Of a stretch of 64,000 bases of DNA, positions 702-55,237 are shown in pieces (position 1 is the first letter of the stretch; each line of letters begins with the position of its first letter). Made by a program: the position numbers and the translations under genes. The notes under the pieces are model-generated. The model saw only the letters and a list, made by a program, of their open reading frames with translations, did no database searches and was not told the DNA's origin. Source of the stretch: Thermoplasmata archaeon (GTDB taxonomy: Archaea > Thermoplasmatota > Thermoplasmata > Methanomassiliicoccales > Methanomethylophilaceae); contig SUTB01000001.1 in NCBI GenBank assembly GCA_015063125.1, positions 372,001-436,000 of the forward strand. The letters run 5' to 3'.

Positions 702-1916
702 ATGTCAGAAGAAAAGAAGGTGTCCGAATGGGAGGAATTGGGGAAGCTGTCCCATGAAGAACTGGTGATAGAGTGCGCCCATCAGAGGTATCTGATGGAA
801 AGCCTGAAGGCCAATCTCACTATGCTTGCGTACGACGAGGGCAACTGGTACGACAAGGGGGATGTCAAAGTCGCACCCGATGAATGGGCCAGATGCATCC
901 TGAGGTATCTTCTGGACAGGCCCGAGAGATACAAGTGCGTCGATGCCGCGGAGATGGAGGTCCTCGGACTGGATTACCGCATTTGCGACCACACATTCGA
1001 GGAATACTGCAAGGCCACGGGATACCTCCCGGATTACACGGACGAACCGATAGAGCATCCCCGCATAACCGTATGGGAGGAGATGGATATGCTGAGCGAT
1101 GAGGAACTGATCATCCAGATCGTGAAGACGAAGAAGGGGCTGAGGACTCTGAGAAACCTGTTCCCTCGTCTCTACGACGATACGACATGCTGCGTGTATC
1201 CCCAGTATCCTCCGAAGAGATGGTTGATGCTCATCATCGGCTATCTGCGCAGAAAAGGGATGAGCGACGGGGAGATCGAGGACAGGTTGGCGACATACGG
1301 GGTCATGGAATACAATTTCAGGGACTATACCGAAGATCCGGAATACGACATCTCCGAGCTATTGGAAGATGATTACGAAAGCCCTAAGCAGGAGGGTGTC
1401 AAGCACATCCTCGGGAAACCGCTGGTCAAGGTCACAGGCTATCCGGACATCCCCATCCCGGAAGATATAGCCGTCATGGGACACGACGACATGGTGGTGG
1501 AGATCGTGAAGCTGGCCAGGTACAGGTCGGATATCAGGCATATGCTCAGGGGAAAGGATAGGGAGGAGAACCTGTCCTCGTACGATTGGAACCTGTTCCC
1601 CCCGCACGACCGTTGGTACGGCTTGATAGAGTCCGGGCTGGATGGCGATGAGAAGGTGACGCATTACGGCGTCAGCAGCGGAACGTACTATGCGCATCAT
1701 CCAGAGGAGGAGAGATCGTATTTTGAGGACGGACTGGACAACGGTTTTAACGAGTACAGGGACATTGAGAGGGAGTTCTCCGCCGACCCTTGGAGGTTCC
1801 TCGACATGCAGGACGACGGTTTCCTGAGATACAAGATGACGGAGCTGAGGGAGCAGACGGATTCGATGAAGGAGCATATCAGGGCGATCGTCGGATACGG
1901 ACGTCTGTCTGAATGA
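702..1916 (+). CDS. Acidic internally repeated protein, function unknown
   Basis: 404 residues, strongly acidic, no signal peptide or membrane segment. The protein is built from repeated units: LSHEELVIECA (about residue 15), LSDEELIIQIV (about 132), MGHDDMVVEIV (about 261) and a weaker fourth copy MQDDGFLRYKM near the C-terminus (about 368). Each is followed about 12 residues later by a short L-R/K-x-L/M helix such as SLKANL, TLRNLF or DIRHML. I do not recognise a named family. The gene meets the truncated minus-strand gene at 1917-2108 tail to tail with no intergenic space, probably a rearrangement junction. Confidence 0.7.
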   Translation: MSEEKKVSEWEELGKLSHEELVIECAHQRYLMESLKANLTMLAYDEGNWYDKGDVKVAPDEWARCILRYLLDRPERYKCVDAAEMEVLGLDYRICDHTFEEYCKATGYLPDYTDEPIEHPRITVWEEMDMLSDEELIIQIVKTKKGLRTLRNLFPRLYDDTTCCVYPQYPPKRWLMLIIGYLRRKGMSDGEIEDRLATYGVMEYNFRDYTEDPEYDISELLEDDYESPKQEGVKHILGKPLVKVTGYPDIPIPEDIAVMGHDDMVVEIVKLARYRSDIRHMLRGKDREENLSSYDWNLFPPHDRWYGLIESGLDGDEKVTHYGVSSGTYYAHHPEEERSYFEDGLDNGFNEYRDIEREFSADPWRFLDMQDDGFLRYKMTELREQTDSMKEHIRAIVGYGRLSE

Positions 1917-2108: not shown

Positions 2109-2337
2109 GTTATCACTATATCGAGACGGATTGGCTCTATCTGAATGTAATGGTCTTCAGCATTAAATAGAAAGTGCCGCAGTCCGAATGCCGTGATAAA
2201 GGTTGAAATCACTGCCGAGATGGAACAATATCAAGATAAGATTCTTTCAGTGACGTCTGTCTATCAAACAAGTTTCATTATCTGACACCCCACCCCTTCT
2301 TGGTTTCAACTGGCCAAGATTTCTTTCCCAAAGATTC

Positions 2338-3057
2338 CTAATAAATCAGCCTATCTGCCGCCAACTTGGGCCATATATCAACGATTCTATCATCGAAGGG
2401 GTGTTTAGACATCCATTTCTTGAATTGTTCATCATGACCTTGAGAGGATTTCATGTTCTGTTGCCTAAGATGAAGGATCTCATGATATACGATGTGATTT
2501 AGGATTCTGGGATCCTATTCTTGACAATCCAGATAATCCGATATCCCTACTACCCTCCATTCCCCGTGACATAGGCCTAGAAGTTCATGGTCGTCATAAC
2601 ATGCCCATGTGAACCTGGCATTGCGGATATCCTCATAGGTTATCAAACCTGTGAACAATAATTTCTTCACTTCATTCATCAAATCCTTATAATTCCCAAG
2701 GGGAGTTCCTTTGTATTCAGGATTTCTGGATATAAATGCAGATTGGATTTCTCTCAATGTCTCCTTGGAATCGATATACATAAGAACGGATTCCGGAATG
2801 GATCTTTCTCCGGCGATATATCTGCGCTCTATCTGGAGTACAAGATCCCACAGGGTATTATCAGGAACTAACTCCAGATAATCGCATATGAAAATATCCC
2901 ACCTGCCATCTGATGTTATCTTGAGATCGTAGTAATAGGGTTGATCCATCAGAAATACCCTGTATGAATTACAAAAAGACAGGGTGCGACCTTTGAAACG
3001 GCACGTGATGTCCTTCGCTTTTGTAACAAGATCAATTGATTGATTATCACAAATCAT
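2338..3057 (-). CDS. SprT-like zinc metalloprotease with in-frame TAG at codon 181
   Basis: Read through the TAG at 2515-2517, the frame gives 239 residues. The first 180 are clearly homologous to the protein at 39533-40273 (shared SDYL/CDYL...PDN, GxYxDLN/MN, F/LxxGLI, and VVG/WIS..LD). The catalytic zinc signature lies after the TAG, in the same frame: VYHEILHLRQ with H192, E193 and H196, then GHDEQFKKW and KHP, the usual third-ligand region. The relative is 246 aa, so the read-through length fits the family and the 180-aa product lacks the active site. The frame ends at another TAG (2338-2340). The start ATG overlaps the upstream TGA at 3054-3057 (ATGA coupling). Either UAG is decoded here, as pyrrolysine in Methanomassiliicoccales, or this is a recent nonsense pseudogene. 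Confidence 0.75.
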
Positions 3058-3731
3058 TCCTTTTTCTCACGGTTGCTGCGGTCATAGAAGTAGAATAAAT
3101 CTGCAGTCTTTTTATCAGGGTACATCCTGTGATAATAATCCAAACGCTGACGTTCTTCGAATGACATAAGCGATTCAGGATACTGGGATTCCCTCCACAG
3201 ATACCCTTTCGATTCTTCATTATGTACGCTGGTCGATCCAGTTGATGAGCTGCTGGAGTCCTCGCTGATTCTACCAGTCGATCCAGTTGATGAGCTGCGA
3301 TAATTATCGGTTGTTCCACCGGTTTCCCAAGATCTCTTCTTTTTGTTTTTAGAGTGGGATCTTTCTCCATAGTAGATCGAATCACCTTTACGACCTGTAA
3401 CACGTTTTTTGTGCTTGCCATGAATATCGATTTCACGAGAGAGGTCCCAACAAGCAATGATACAGGCCAGAGGCCAGATAGCTACAACCTTGGACTCGAG
3501 ATTGTCCCCTAACAGTACGAAAAAAAGAGCACCAACCAAACACATTATAATGGGGTATTTGAGTTCCAGCGTCCTGTATGAAATATAAGCTACAATCAAT
3601 GAAGGGATCAAGATAAATGCCCATAACAAAACTAGATTGCCTATTTCAGAGTAACCATCCAGCACCGAACTTACAGTACCTATCGATAGTAAAATGATGC
3701 TGCCAATGAAATAAATGATGGCAATTTTCAT
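3054..3731 (-). CDS. Membrane protein with C-terminal LMSFEE motif
   Basis: 225 residues. Three or four hydrophobic segments occupy residues 1-105 (IAIIYFIGSIILLSIGTV, LVLLWAFILIPSLIVAYI, IIMCLVGALFFVLLG, AIWPLACIIACW). A basic, Ser/Gly/Thr-rich linker with two SSSTGSTG-type repeats follows (about 110-175). The C-terminal 40 residues contain PESLMSFEERQRLDYYHRMY, closely matching the end of the MORN protein at 4277, so this tail is a shared small domain. The gene is translationally coupled to the zincin gene downstream (ATGA). AT-richer than the flanking genes. Function unknown; a membrane-anchored partner of the zincin is a reasonable guess. Confidence 0.65.
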   Translation of the reverse strand: MKIAIIYFIGSIILLSIGTVSSVLDGYSEIGNLVLLWAFILIPSLIVAYISYRTLELKYPIIMCLVGALFFVLLGDNLESKVVAIWPLACIIACWDLSREIDIHGKHKKRVTGRKGDSIYYGERSHSKNKKKRSWETGGTTDNYRSSSTGSTGRISEDSSSSSTGSTSVHNEESKGYLWRESQYPESLMSFEERQRLDYYHRMYPDKKTADLFYFYDRSNREKKE

Positions 3732-4276
3732 AATTCTGTATAAGATAGCACAAATTTATTGTTTTCTTGACTTCGACACTAGCAAATTCAGTCTTTTCTG
3801 ATCATATTTAAGCAGATATGCTCAGGCCTATCGGGTCTGAAGAAGGTCACCAGGAAAGTGAGCATCAAGTGCAGGTTCCTGTTCCTGCAGCTCCTTTGTA
3901 CGTTGTTCAAAGGTTACGCACTGACAGAGTCCTGAGCGCAGCTCAGGACCGATAAGAGTGGCGAAGAGTCCCCATTTTATATGCTACTACTCAGTGGAAA
4001 CTCCCGCCGCCCTCCGGATTTAATTCGCCGTTTATGGTTTTATTCCCGTGCAGACCCGTCATGAAGGGCTGTTGAAAGGCCGTCCTGTGAAAGAACGATG
4101 GGCATCTTCGTATCATTGGTGGGGGACGTTCAGAGTAATCGCGAAACTTTGAATCCACTGTCTCATGTATTTGTTTTTTTCAATCATTATTAAATTTGAA
4201 TTCTTCATTTAGACTTTCATTTAGATTGTTCGTACGGATGAAATGTGGACTTTTTCCATCATTGATAGGTGTTAAT
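3732..4276. other. 545-nt spacer without a convincing gene
   Basis: No frame here looks like a complete gene. It holds a near-perfect inverted repeat at 3929-3949 (stem GTCCTGAGC, loop GCA) that would form a hairpin, the AT-rich divergent promoter zone for the gene at 3731 near 3740-3770, and an AT-rich stretch at 4165-4200 ahead of the MORN gene. A short frame around 3805-3930 (SGLKKVTRKVSIKCRFLF) looks like decayed coding sequence but I cannot assign it. The block lies between accessory genes and may include old transposon debris. Confidence 0.5.
3929..3949. repeat. Inverted repeat / hairpin
   Basis: 9-bp perfect stem GTCCTGAGC with a 3-nt loop, in the spacer between two divergent accessory genes. 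No T-run follows, so a terminator is not shown; it could be a structured RNA element or operator. Confidence 0.5.
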
Positions 4277-5119
4277 ATGGATAATGCGCAATACATAGGA
4301 AATGAATCTAAATGTACGATTTATTGGGGAGATCCCATTACTGTTGATCTTGGTAAGATAACGAAAATCTCGTTCAATAAAGATGAGTACAGTATGTATT
4401 CGGGCAATCGTGTCAATGGCATTTGGAGGGTCCAATATTCTAATAACAGCAGTTATGATGGTGAAATGGTAAACGGAAAGAGAGAGGGCTTTGGCTATCT
4501 TATACACCGTGAAAAAGGTGAATACCATACTAAATATCGCGGTTTGTTCCATGCTGATGATCTCGTGATGGGTGAAACCCTAATAGTCTTCGATGGAGTT
4601 GGATTTTTGAAAGGTGAAGTGGATTCTGGAGCATTTGTCCGGGGGAAATTTGAACATTCAAATGGTGACATTCAGAGTGGTGAATGGAAAAAGGGAATTC
4701 AACACGGACAGTGTTTGTTGAATCTGGCTTCGAAGGACATCTGTTGGAAAGGGCAGTTCATCAATGGTATGCCAAACGGCCCTTGCGTGATGTCTAGGCC
4801 TAGTTCTGACCTTATACAATTCAGAGGCAATTTTTCTGATCCTGGAAATGCTTCTGGAGATCTTTTCGTTTGGGAAAACCACGAATGGGTTTGGGATTGT
4901 TCTGCAGATCTTGTTGATGGCGTAGTGGTTCCGCATAAAAATTCTGCAACAACTATCAGCGATACTAAATCGCCTGGTGTCAGGGAACATTTTGCTCCGG
5001 AACATTTGATGAGCTTTGAGGAGAAGCAATGTCTTGAACAATAGAGAAGATGGTTCGGTCAAGCAGATGCAGATATAGTCTGGCTTCAAAAACACCGCAA
5101 TAACGGGGCGCATCGTTAA
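4277..5119 (+). CDS. MORN-repeat protein with in-frame TAG at codon 256
   Basis: Starts at the ATG of MDNAQYIGNES. The middle carries MORN-type repeats (YDGEMVNGKREGFG at about residue 60, SGEWKKGIQHGQ near 133, WKGQFINGMPNGP near 158), beta-hairpin units known in other proteins as peptide- or lipid-contacting scaffolds. Near the end, PEHLMSFEEKQCLEQ matches PESLMSFEERQRLDY of the membrane protein at 3054-3731. A TAG stands at 5042-5044, but the frame continues for 24 codons to TAA at 5117-5119 and reads RRWFGQADADIVWLQKH, which aligns with HRMYPDKKTADLFYFYDR of the relative. The TAG aligns with a Tyr. The tail after TAG therefore looks like real protein. AT-rich compared with the core. Confidence 0.65.
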
Positions 5120-5162: not shown

Positions 5163-5561
5163 TTGAAGGCTATCTGTTGGAATCCAGACGTCCATAAAGG
5201 GTATTCATCACCTCAGATTTCTGTTTTTTCAGGGTCCGATAAGCATAAGGCCTACCCCATGGTCATGAATACCTTGGAGGTGGTGGCTCATAACGCCATC
5301 CTGTTCAAAGATGCAGATAATCTGTCCGAGATCAACAAGATCCATCAGGACATCCGTATATTTATGGCCCCTTTCGAGGGAGTGTTCACCAAGTGGCTAC
5401 CATACTATCTCGCATGGTACAAATGGATCAGGACCTTCTCCCATAACGCACAGGTCACCATAAAGCAGATCGTTTCCGGCAGCCACATACACAAATGGCG
5501 TGAGATCCCCGAGATTCCGATACCTTTCCTCGATTCTGCCATGCAGCCCACCAAGTGCTGA
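5163..5561 (+). pseudogene. Transposase fragment (IS1595/ISXO2-like C-terminus)
   Basis: 132 residues, lacking the N-terminal zinc-binding part and most of the DDE core. The end reads INKIHQDIRIFMAPFEGVFT then WLPYYLAWYKWIRTF, matching the typical IS1595 ending (N-x-x-ES-x-F...GV...YL-x-x-YL-x-x-F-x-W). The usual N/H and E of the third catalytic region are not obvious, consistent with decay. The family is assigned by pattern from memory and needs a profile search. Confidence 0.55.
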
Positions 5562-5745
5562 TAATCCCTTGATACTACGGTCGGTAGGCCGTCTGAAAGT
5601 ATCCCAACCAGCTTACATTCTATGTGGAACACTACCTGATGTGCCTCAAATTAGGTCTGAGGGCCTACCTCGGATCCATCTCCGCAGGCTGTTTATTCGT
5701 AAGCGACCCCCAATGGTTTTCTCAACGACCGGGTCACGGAGTCAT

Positions 5746-5770
5746 ACCAACACGCTGGTCACTAAGCTCA
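5746..5770 (-). repeat. IS terminal inverted repeat (right end)
   Basis: 25 bp, read on the minus strand beginning TGAGCTTAGTGACC and ending GTGTTGGT. It is identical over that length to the left end of the small element at 9184 and differs by one base from its right end at 9363-9388. Confidence 0.75.
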
Positions 5771-5814
5771 ATTCCGATTGATAAATGCAATCAAGTTAAC
5801 TAAGTTAATCAGGA

Positions 5815-6073: not shown

Positions 6074-6991
6074 ATGCCGAAGTACACCATATATGAGATC
6101 GAGGAACCCGATGATCAGGATATGTCCGATGATTCATGCACCATGGCCAGCATGGCCCAACCGCGGATAATATCCGGGAGGAAAGAGCGCATAGTCATCG
6201 CCTGCGTCATGATGGACGTCCCGATGGTCGTAGAACCGGCCCTGTACTATCAGGCGGATACGGTCCATCTCATACACTTCGACAGGAACCACAGGGACGA
6301 TTCCAGCAAGATCTACATAGATTTCTTCAAGGAAGCCCGCAGACAGCTGTATGACAGGTCGGAGGCCGAGGTCGAGGAGCACAACGCCAACGTCTATGAT
6401 TTCCATACGATGATGCGCACGATCCTCGAGATAATCGCCGAGGACCGCAGGAGGACCGGGGGCATAATGGATGTGTACGTGAACATCTCGTCCGGGACCA
6501 CGGAGTACTCGGCAGCGGCCATGCTGGTGTGCATGCAGAACAAGAGCCTGACGGCCTTCACTGTGAGGACGGACGTGTACACCCTTGGCAGGGACAGGAT
6601 AATGGAACTTCTATACAAGGATGGAAAGCCCTTAGGTTTCTCGACCAAGGTGGAGGAGCCTCGGATGGTGGTCACGTTCGACCCGGACAAGCAGGATGCG
6701 CAGCTCGTGGCATGCCTCGGAGTGCTGAAGCAGGAACAGTCCAGGAAGAGGAACGTCTACGCCTCGGATATTATCAACGGCCTGAAGATCATCGGTGCAT
6801 GGAATTACGAGCCGGACAGGAAGAGGGGCAGGACGAGCGACGAACAGAAGGAGCTCATGCACCTGAAGAGGGCCTATCTTGAACCCATGATGAAGAAGGG
6901 CTGGATCGTCAAGAACGAGCTGATGAAGGGCAGATGGGACATAACGCCCGAGGGAGAGGCCATAATCGACATCTACCACGGGCTGGAATGA
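6074..6991 (+). CDS. CARF-wHTH transcriptional regulator (DUF6293 / HFX_2341-like)
   Basis: 305 residues. An N-terminal Rossmann-like sensing domain (about residues 30-165) includes RKERIVIACVMMD, the strand-loop YYQADTVHLIHF and the signature DVYVNISSGTTEYSAAAM, the usual nucleotide-ligand loop of this family. A C-terminal winged helix follows (about 200-305: VYASDIINGLKIIGAW, LEPMMKKGWIVKN, ITPEGEAIIDIY). CARF domains bind cyclic oligonucleotides in type III CRISPR systems, but no CRISPR genes are in the window, so the ligand is unknown. The start could be the later Met at 6143. The gene ends 4 nt from the end of the convergent PD-(D/E)XK gene at 6996; the pair looks like defence cargo. Confidence 0.78.
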   Translation: MPKYTIYEIEEPDDQDMSDDSCTMASMAQPRIISGRKERIVIACVMMDVPMVVEPALYYQADTVHLIHFDRNHRDDSSKIYIDFFKEARRQLYDRSEAEVEEHNANVYDFHTMMRTILEIIAEDRRRTGGIMDVYVNISSGTTEYSAAAMLVCMQNKSLTAFTVRTDVYTLGRDRIMELLYKDGKPLGFSTKVEEPRMVVTFDPDKQDAQLVACLGVLKQEQSRKRNVYASDIINGLKIIGAWNYEPDRKRGRTSDEQKELMHLKRAYLEPMMKKGWIVKNELMKGRWDITPEGEAIIDIYHGLE

Positions 6992-8774: not shown

Positions 8775-9183
8775 AACAAATAGACTGGTGATATCATGTA
8801 CACATGGCACGTTCGGAGGATACGTTCAGAAGGGTTCTGACAATACTTTACAGGGATTAGGACTTATGCCTGTCTATGTACTCTTTGGATGACGATCCGT
8901 ATCGCAAGAGTGTATGCCTCAGGACAGCGATGGACATACGGTCCTTCGTATACAGGCTCAGCGAATCGGAGCAGTCTATGCCAATCCATCTGAGAAAAAG
9001 TATGGACAAGAGCCTGTTTGAATCTAAGGACATCATAAGGAAGGACAGCATGATGCTCGTCGGCCTGTGCTCTACGGTCGGAGGGCCGCTCACGGAGAAT
9101 CCTTTGTTCCCTGTGGATTGGAAGATTATACGGCAGACCTATGCACGTATGTGCGGAGTTTATTCAGGATACCGTTCCGATTT

Positions 9184-9656
<473 letters not shown>

Positions 9657-43359: not shown

Positions 43360-44082
43360 CTACATCATCAGATCCCCTACTTCCCTTGGGGTGCCGTAAG
43401 CAATCTGCTGGATGATGAAGAATTCGTCTACAGTCATGGGAACGACGAACTCATGTTGCAAAGGCCCTCTCCTATCGTGCTCAGGCACTTCGCATACTCC
43501 GACCTTGAACTTCACGTATCTGTCCTCTTCATCGTCTTTGCTATCCAGAGAATCTAGGAAAGCTTTTGCTATAGCCTTATCATCGCCGAATCTGTCGATC
43601 AGCCGCCCATATTCATAATCCGAAAGCTTGATCGAGAGTTCTACCCCTTCGACCTTCTTCAGCGGCACATCGGACTTCCTGAGATCCTCCAGAATGTATG
43701 TCATTTCCTTGGGGTCGTAGCAATAGGTTGCGACGATATCAGGCTGTATGTCGCATTCGTAGCGGTTGTCACCCAGATCGCGCTCGTTATGCTCCACGGG
43801 CATCATGACGGTATAGCCGCTCAGATATGCTTCCAGAGACCACAAGCCCTTAGAATCCGGGTATTCGGCTAATAACTCCTTCTCGGCCTCGAGAAATCTA
43901 TCTGTTTCCATCACACAAGGGCCCTCGCCCTCATCCCACTCGGTGCCGAACCCGAATGCGGGGTGATCGGGATCGGGTACGGGCTTCCAATCGGAGAATG
44001 TGCAGTCATCGTACCGTATGCGGTATCTGCAGCGTATCTTTCCGATCATTGATGACGAGTCCTCGAACATATCCTGGACCAC
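43360..44082 (-). CDS. Unknown protein, paralogue of the 46924 gene; TAG stop
   Basis: 240 residues. It shares with the 251-residue protein at 46924-47679 the opening CRYRIRYDDCTFSDWKPVPD (RYKVRYSDGSVSDWMLIPD), the centre YLSGYTVMMPVEHNE (YLSGYAVTMPVEYNE) and the end EFFIIQQIAYG (EFFAFQQIAYG). The stop is TAG (43360-43362); read-through adds only VLIDN before TGA, matching VGVLSQ at the same place in the paralogue. The pair brackets the reverse-transcriptase gene. No known domain recognised. Confidence 0.65.
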   Translation of the reverse strand: MVQDMFEDSSSMIGKIRCRYRIRYDDCTFSDWKPVPDPDHPAFGFGTEWDEGEGPCVMETDRFLEAEKELLAEYPDSKGLWSLEAYLSGYTVMMPVEHNERDLGDNRYECDIQPDIVATYCYDPKEMTYILEDLRKSDVPLKKVEGVELSIKLSDYEYGRLIDRFGDDKAIAKAFLDSLDSKDDEEDRYVKFKVGVCEVPEHDRRGPLQHEFVVPMTVDEFFIIQQIAYGTPREVGDLMM

Positions 44083-53136: not shown

Positions 53137-54153
53137 TCAGGGTCTCTCAACAGAACCGTCGGGTCTGTGCAGTTCCCTGCCCATCTCTATGGGGTTGGTG
53201 ACGTCCATGATCTTCCAGGGCCATTCCTGGAATTCGTTGATCCTGATCTCATCCATGGACTTCCTGACTGTGTCGAGATCCTCCAGGATGACCGGTCCGA
53301 ATGCCGCCTGCTTCTCGCCGATGGGTTTCCCTTCGAGTATCCAGATCTCGGATTCCTCTTCGCCGTTCACCACTCTCAGATCGGTGTTCGGTTTCATCTT
53401 GAACCTGAGGTTCGGCTTCACCTGAGTCCCGTCCAGGTCGATGGTCTTTCCGGAAAGGTAGTACAAGTTGCGTCCGATATCCCCATCCAGCTTATCCAGC
53501 TCGAATACGGATCCGGGCTGCATGATGACCTTCATGATCCTGACGGAGTTCTCCGCCTTGGCCCAGGAGCCCTCATTGGGAGAGTACAGGGATTTGCCGC
53601 AGTATTCGCCGCAGTACAGAGTCACCGTCACGCCATCCTTCTCGATAACAGGGACGGATTCGGACCATGTGTTATTCACCTGGATGCCCTTGTTCTTCCT
53701 GTCGATCGGGATGTTTACCATGATCTGCGTGATGTGTACCGGATTGTTGTTCTCCTGGTCCAGAAGGGGATACATCTCACAGTGCTCATACCTGCTCGAT
53801 GCTAACGTCCACTGTATGTCTCCGTTGCCGTAGCGCCCATAGTTCTTCTCTGTATCGAAGTGGTCCACGAAACCTTTCTCCGCTATCGATATGGTCTCGT
53901 AGCCCCAGTGGGCGTGCATAGGGAATCCCGGAACCACCCTGCCGTGGTACATCCTGAATCCGTACCTCTCCTGATAGTCCCTGCCGAGGTTCCTGCCCCT
54001 TATCATCTCCAGCGGGGGAGCCATCTGTGCGTTGCCCTTGGGATACTCATCGTGGTGGTGCGAGACGAATGTGAAAGGATCGTCACCGGACCAGTGGATG
54101 TTGATATCCACGATTTTCTGGACCGTTTTGGGCTTCTTCGATAGCAGGAACAT
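53137..54153 (-). CDS. Pirin-like cupin protein
   Basis: 338 residues. The double cupin with PMHAHWGYETISIAEKGFVD, DTEKNYGRYGNGDIQWTLAS and RYEHCEMYPL corresponds to the pirin metal site (HxHxxxET...H...GDxQWM...xHxE). Longer than typical pirins (about 230-290 aa) owing to a C-terminal extension. Pirins are Fe-dependent cytoplasmic proteins with regulatory or quercetinase activity; the substrate is unknown here. Confidence 0.78.
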   Translation of the reverse strand: MFLLSKKPKTVQKIVDINIHWSGDDPFTFVSHHHDEYPKGNAQMAPPLEMIRGRNLGRDYQERYGFRMYHGRVVPGFPMHAHWGYETISIAEKGFVDHFDTEKNYGRYGNGDIQWTLASSRYEHCEMYPLLDQENNNPVHITQIMVNIPIDRKNKGIQVNNTWSESVPVIEKDGVTVTLYCGEYCGKSLYSPNEGSWAKAENSVRIMKVIMQPGSVFELDKLDGDIGRNLYYLSGKTIDLDGTQVKPNLRFKMKPNTDLRVVNGEEESEIWILEGKPIGEKQAAFGPVILEDLDTVRKSMDEIRINEFQEWPWKIMDVTNPIEMGRELHRPDGSVERP

Positions 54154-54214
54154 GACAACCGCATGAACTATTCAGGATAAATCCGTTGTCGCTGGACCAA
54201 GGAAATGGAAGGGA

Positions 54215-55237
54215 TCAGTCGAGGTTGTAGTAGGTGCGTCTGCCGTCCATGTTGATCCTCTCAAGCCCCATCCTGGAATCGATCTCCTCGAGGATGGAGA
54301 CGAGGCTGTCGCGGTCATCGGTCTCCGTGGCGAGTCTGAGCCTGTATTCGCGGCAGCGGTGGCAACCGGAGACGAACTTCGGCGCTATGCTCCTAAGTTT
54401 CCTGATCCCGGTATCCTCACCCTTCTCCGCTATGATGGCATCCGCCAGCTGTATGCACCATTCGATCTGCTGGTGGACGGTGGGATTCTCCAATCTTTTC
54501 CCGGTTTTGTAGAACTCGTCTATCTGGGTGCAGAGGAAGGGATTGCCTACCCCTCCTCTTGCGACCATCACGGCAGTGGCCTTTGTCTTCTCCATCGCGT
54601 CGACGGCATCGTCCAGCAGATAGATGTTGCCTGATATGATCAGCGGCACGGACATATGTTCCTGCAGTCCTGCGATGGTTTCGAAATCAGGTTTCCCGCT
54701 GTATCCCTGGTCTTTGGTGCGAGCATGCACGGTGATGGCATCCACATCAGCGGATTCCAGTTCCGAGATGACATCCACGTAGTTCATATGTCCACGGTCT
54801 GAACCGAGGCGGATCTTCGCAGTGACCGGTTTTCCGGTGAGTTCCTTCACCTTCCTCATGATCTCACCGCACAGTTCCGGATCCTTCATCAGTACCGATC
54901 CAGCTCCGCTGTGCAGTATCTTGTGAACCGGACATCCCATGTTGATGTCGAAGAAATCAATGTTCTCGTTGTGATCCAGGGCCTTGACGGCAGCCTTGGC
55001 GATGTCATCCGAGGAATGGCCGAAGAGCTGGAGTCCAGTAGGATAGTTCCTTCCGAACTCGACGTATTCGGATGTTTTGAGATCAGAGTTAAGAAGACCG
55101 ACAGCAGACGTCATCTCCGTCATCGATACGGCAACCCCGAAGGGTTTCATGAAGTCCCTGTAACTGCTGGATGTGTATCCAGACATCGGCCCCAGCACCA
55201 CTGGGCCATCGATCCCGATATCTCCGATCTTCCACAT
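54215..55237 (-). CDS. dus: tRNA-dihydrouridine synthase
   Basis: 340 residues. Starts MWKIGDIGIDGPVVLGPMSG YT; FMN-binding TIM barrel with DINMGCPVHKIL and the catalytic Cys of the GCP motif, SGAGSVLMKDP, KIRLG, ITVHARTKDQGYSG, ISGNIY and MVARGGVGNPFL. These are the DUS signature blocks. Reduces uridines in tRNA D-loops using flavin. Downstream gene on the same strand follows within 10 nt in the transcription order (NIF3-like gene upstream at 55242). Confidence 0.9.
   Translation of the reverse strand: MWKIGDIGIDGPVVLGPMSGYTSSSYRDFMKPFGVAVSMTEMTSAVGLLNSDLKTSEYVEFGRNYPTGLQLFGHSSDDIAKAAVKALDHNENIDFFDINMGCPVHKILHSGAGSVLMKDPELCGEIMRKVKELTGKPVTAKIRLGSDRGHMNYVDVISELESADVDAITVHARTKDQGYSGKPDFETIAGLQEHMSVPLIISGNIYLLDDAVDAMEKTKATAVMVARGGVGNPFLCTQIDEFYKTGKRLENPTVHQQIEWCIQLADAIIAEKGEDTGIRKLRSIAPKFVSGCHRCREYRLRLATETDDRDSLVSILEEIDSRMGLERINMDGRRTYYNLD

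Follow-up and report, generated by a model that had tools for sequence, protein, structure and literature searches.

Does the in-frame TAG at 5042–5044 terminate the MORN-repeat gene that opens at ATG 4277, or is it read as a sense codon and the protein continued to a later stop? Positions here refer to the window, that is, the whole stretch of 64,000 nucleotides that was analysed. The original prediction that this ORF runs past the TAG proved exact in its coordinates, with 24 open codons separating the TAG from a TAA at 5117–5119, and in the main product pyrrolysine is very probably inserted at TAG 5042. An alternative in-frame TTG start lies upstream at 4196, and Pfam detects MORN repeats (PF02493, E 4.5e-11) in three stretches of the 4277 ORF. 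The features of this gene, and of a nearby gene that carries a related tail, are as follows.

4277–5119 (+): MORN-repeat protein with the TAG read through, 280 residues up to the TAA
4748–4807 (+): best of the three MORN repeats (PF02493)
5000–5116 (+): C-terminal tail of the MORN protein, 39 residues, a predicted helical hairpin, with 14 residues before the TAG and 24 after it
5042–5044 (+): in-frame TAG, most likely pyrrolysine, opposite a Tyr codon (TAT) of the related tail that differs by a single base
5117–5119 (+): TAA, probable real stop, at the same end column as the related tail
Tryptic peptide WFGQADADIVWLQK of the predicted read-through MORN product, which contains or follows residue 256, the TAG position
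3054–3731 (−): tail-bearing protein of 225 aa, with a hydrophobic N-terminal half, a low-complexity middle and the sense-codon version of the tail
3057–3176 (−): related tail ESLMSFEERQRLDYYHRMYPDKKTADLFYFYDRSNREKKE of the 3054 protein

When the last 39 residues of the MORN protein were aligned with the last 40 of the 3054 protein, 14 identities were found in 40 columns with one gap. In this pairwise alignment TAG 5042 faces a Tyr encoded by TAT, and the C-termini of the two proteins, that of the MORN protein being taken at the TAA, fall in the identical column. This agrees with the earlier claim that the 24 post-TAG codons align with the 3054-protein tail with a single gap and the TAG opposite a Tyr. 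The motif LMSFEE is identical in both tails while five of its six codons differ, which indicates an old similarity maintained at the protein level and not a recent DNA copy. The 3054 protein, for which a Pfam search returned no match, had also been called a paralogue; this description did not hold, since the approximately 40-residue C-terminal tail is all that the two proteins have in common, and "shared C-terminal domain" is therefore the more exact term.

Taken by itself, the post-TAG match is weak. When the post-TAG peptide alone was compared with the other tail, unanchored shuffles gave p values of 0.13–0.27; anchored at the TAG column, the same peptide gave p values of 0.01–0.04 against shuffles and real post-stop peptides, for this one pair. 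The coincident frame end is a feature independent of the post-TAG alignment. When the TAGs of either strand were counted in about 227 kb of the genome, 3263 in total, 4.4% were found to have their next TAA or TGA at 23–26 codons, the range in which the stop of the 3054 protein predicts the end of the MORN frame, and between one and five, TAG 5042 counted among them, combine such a stop with the alignment score reached here, a joint count that depends on how gaps are penalised (two settings gave 2 and 5). The post-TAG codons of this single tail pair are saturated, with mostly non-synonymous differences, and dN/dS is uninformative for them.

Regarding structure, AlphaFold models of the two tails, built on these two sequences with the TAG read as Tyr, predicted a helical hairpin with a pLDDT of about 85–89 in its core; the full-length MORN protein reached a pLDDT of only 31.5. 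In the predicted hairpin TAG 5042 lies within the first helix, and the entire second helix is encoded 3′ of the TAG. The original prediction had also looked to homologues for a sense codon at the TAG position: the related tail provides a Tyr, and no further homologue of the MORN gene or its tail was detected in searches of the genus, the family, the order (147 genomes), GTDB representatives, IMG/VR, phages and plasmids. Two order-level matches, at E 0.03, were set aside as being at chance level. With neither a MORN homologue nor a third tail detected in these collections, the case for post-TAG conservation comes from a single pair of tails.

The genome (1.65 Mb in 8 contigs) carries pylT, which encodes tRNA-Pyl with a CUA anticodon, together with pylS, pylB, pylC and pylD, all in one cluster. 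The four protein-coding genes match their NCBIfam models (TIGR02367 for PylS, TIGR03910 for pylB, TIGR03909 for pylC and TIGR03911 for pylD), each over the curated cut-off, and the PylS ORF is devoid of the long N-terminal part of the full-length model. Two mtmB genes with an in-frame TAG adjoin the cluster, and a dimethylamine methyltransferase gene (Dimeth_Pyl) with an in-frame TAG is found elsewhere in the genome. These features suit a member of the Methanomassiliicoccales, probably of the Methanomethylophilaceae. TAG usage was evaluated in about 227 kb, comprising the window, the pyl region, one SprT region and seven 20-kb stretches, and confident ORFs were chosen with a simple codon-usage gene picker, which favours GC-richer typical genes and under-samples AT-rich stretches. 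The 197 confident ORFs obtained in this way end in TGA (169), TAA (23) or TAG (5). In four of the five TAG-ended ORFs (two MtmB, the dimethylamine methyltransferase and a PLP enzyme of Cys/Met metabolism), clear coding sequence follows the TAG, so that TAG scarcely ever terminates a gene in the sampled DNA; the fifth (43360–44082, minus strand) has no match in Pfam and overlaps another ORF, which leaves at most one doubtful case of a terminating TAG in about 193 confident ORFs. The PLP-dependent enzyme (PF01053, E 9.5e-133; G000:C1 near 105912–107207, minus strand) has its in-frame TAG at codon 302, inside the domain, and is likely a pyrrolysine-containing enzyme of core metabolism.

A further amber-interrupted gene was found in the vicinity of the MORN gene. 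The original prediction had placed amber codons in two neighbouring genes, and a second such gene does exist; it is not the 3054 gene, but a SprT-like gene of the metallopeptidase family located beyond it, with the following features.

2278–3057 (−): SprT-like (PF10263) gene with the TAG read through, 4 bases of which are shared with the end of the 3054 gene
2515–2517 (−): TAG at codon 181, within the SprT-like domain, V/I/L in homologues
2470–2484 (−): HEILH (HExxH) motif, lying wholly 3′ of the TAG
2338–2340 (−): second TAG, codon 240, past the conserved domain, where sense and stop are both possible

When read through, this gene matches PF10263 at 22.3 bits (E 1.3e-4), below the gathering score of 25.6 bits, and when cut at the TAG it has no match in Pfam, the family thus being detected only on read-through. 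Like other members of the SprT-like family, the window gene aligns over the domain and possesses the HExxH motif; it differs from them in its sub-gathering score and in requiring read-through of the TAG to encode that motif. SprT-like matches were found in 93 of 102 family genomes, its own included, and the best ones align across the TAG. In 29 aligned homologues the TAG column is occupied by V (23), I (5) or L (1), and the conserved HExxH sits 11 codons 3′ of TAG 2515. On this comparison, TAG 2515 would be a sense codon with a probability still higher than that of TAG 5042, and the SprT-like neighbour is the strongest local evidence for the predicted translation of TAG in this AT-rich stretch. 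The earlier implication that TAG 5042 is sense is supported by a complete pylTSBCD set, by the rarity of TAG as terminator and by the sense column occupied by the TAG of this neighbour. Another SprT-like gene in this genome (G000:C1 near 54116–54610, plus strand), possibly 5′ truncated, carries two in-frame TAGs at columns unlike those of the window copy. SprT-like homologues in three congeners (G008, G001 and G003) have one in-frame TAG apiece, which suggests that amber sense codons may be common across the genus.

In the mechanism proposed for TAG 5042, Pyl-tRNA(CUA), which PylS would load with the pyrrolysine that PylBCD synthesise, would vie with the release factor at UAG, a competition described as requiring no obligatory mRNA element (PMC9499178). 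Pyrrolysine would be inserted at 5042–5044 and translation would terminate at the TAA 5117–5119. The codon itself may have arisen from a Tyr codon in the helical-hairpin tail by a single base change, TAT to TAG, if the ancestral codon was that of the related tail, and such a substitution would presumably have been near-neutral, as has been argued for Ca. Methanomethylophilus alvus, where TAG rarely terminates (PMC4153887). The change would have been cheap, and hence would have persisted, because TAG has nearly no terminator duty in this genome; a special role of pyrrolysine at this position would not be required. We infer the probable incorporation of pyrrolysine from the machinery, the rare TAG stops, the other TAG-interrupted genes and the similarity of the tails.

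It is unlikely that TAG 5042 is instead a real stop, or one used most of the time, in a gene acquired horizontally, with the next 24 codons left over from a decaying tail and TAA 5117 serving as back-up. The weak similarity of the post-TAG peptide when taken alone would fit such a remnant, as would the AT-rich nature of a stretch that is missing from a same-species genome. The genome-wide TAG statistics may not fully cover the MORN gene, because it lies in this AT-richer stretch. Additionally, back-up UAA or UGA codons after UAG have been described in pyrrolysine-using archaea (PMC9499178), and a nearby TAA, which is also expected behind a genuine UAG stop, counts to that extent against translation of the TAG. 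However, at most one of about 193 sampled confident ORFs truly terminates at TAG, a TAG precedes the HExxH of the SprT-like gene in this AT-rich stretch, and the MORN frame ends where the related tail ends.

Very improbable is a regulated read-through in which tail-less and tailed MORN proteins are both made and the UAG acts as a switch set by the pyrrolysine supply. The competition between Pyl-tRNA and release factor by which UAG is decoded (PMC9499178) would allow it, and with the TAG so close to the C-terminus both forms could be stable; but a stop at the TAG would cut the hairpin predicted by AlphaFold in the middle of a helix, and the scarcity of TAG terminators points to decoding that is efficient and constitutive, an argument also made for Ca. 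M. alvus (PMC4153887). A sequencing or assembly error concealing a sense codon such as TAT at 5042 is scarcely plausible: the TAG is one base from the TAT of the related tail and the gene is known from one assembly, but in-frame TAGs also occur in the same genome where Pyl is expected and in paralogous SprT-like genes, and since in-frame TAGs are normal there, no error is needed to explain TAG 5042. The preferred reading is thus the translation of TAG 5042 as pyrrolysine.

The probable pyrrolysine at the MORN TAG can soundly be considered a fresh example of a known phenomenon, predicted for the order in 2014. In that year, Borrel et al. (PMC4153887) listed 16 predicted pyrrolysine-containing non-methyltransferase genes in the Ca. 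Methanomethylophilus alvus genome, which shares its cassette type with the present genome, seldom uses TAG as a stop (1.6% in Ca. M. alvus) and has in-frame TAGs in ordinary genes (Cas1, MtxX, a Fic protein and others) where homologues carry sense codons. The present case differs in that the MORN and SprT-like genes are absent from the table of 16, and in that the MORN comparison involves a domain in a neighbouring gene and no orthologue (PMC4153887). With MtmB, MtbB and MttB, of which MtmB and the dimethylamine methyltransferase occur in the genome of the window, the MORN gene would share an in-frame TAG decoded by the same machinery; their pyrrolysine is catalytic and conserved, whereas the MORN site is variable and its residue probably dispensable. 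Archaea that read all TAG codons as pyrrolysine (the "Pyl code") were reportedly described in 2025, and the practical absence of TAG as terminator in the approximately 227 kb sampled here resembles that situation. The MORN and SprT-like genes thus join the list of non-methyltransferase genes in which UAG is probably pyrrolysine. Both are truncated by standard annotation, the SprT-like one losing its HExxH, and gene callers and protein databases that deal with these archaea should by default treat TAG as sense.

The MORN-gene stretch has a GC content of 40–44%, against 52% for the window, and a DNA search with the first 13 kb of the window found no match in a same-species genome, so that the stretch is probably strain-variable and recently acquired. 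It may tentatively be proposed that, with no terminator role left to TAG, acquired AT-rich genes (the SprT-like, the tail-bearing hydrophobic and the MORN genes) have already gained amber sense codons, mobile genes being adapted to, or exchanged within, a Pyl-code gene pool. A minus-strand frame at 705–2108, whose TAG falls at codon 250, was discarded because it shadows the 702–1916 (+) ORF. The product of 6074–6991 (+) contains an HFX_2341_N domain (PF19810, E 1.4e-17) and weakly matches DUF6293_C, and its CARF-like Cas matches are at chance level only. Additionally, a 37-base stretch at window positions 5733–5769 has an exact match in another genome of the genus, and 32 of its bases are found in a second; 26 bases of it recur at 9183–9208 on the minus strand, constituting a dispersed repeat beside an apparently broken ORF at 5163–5781.
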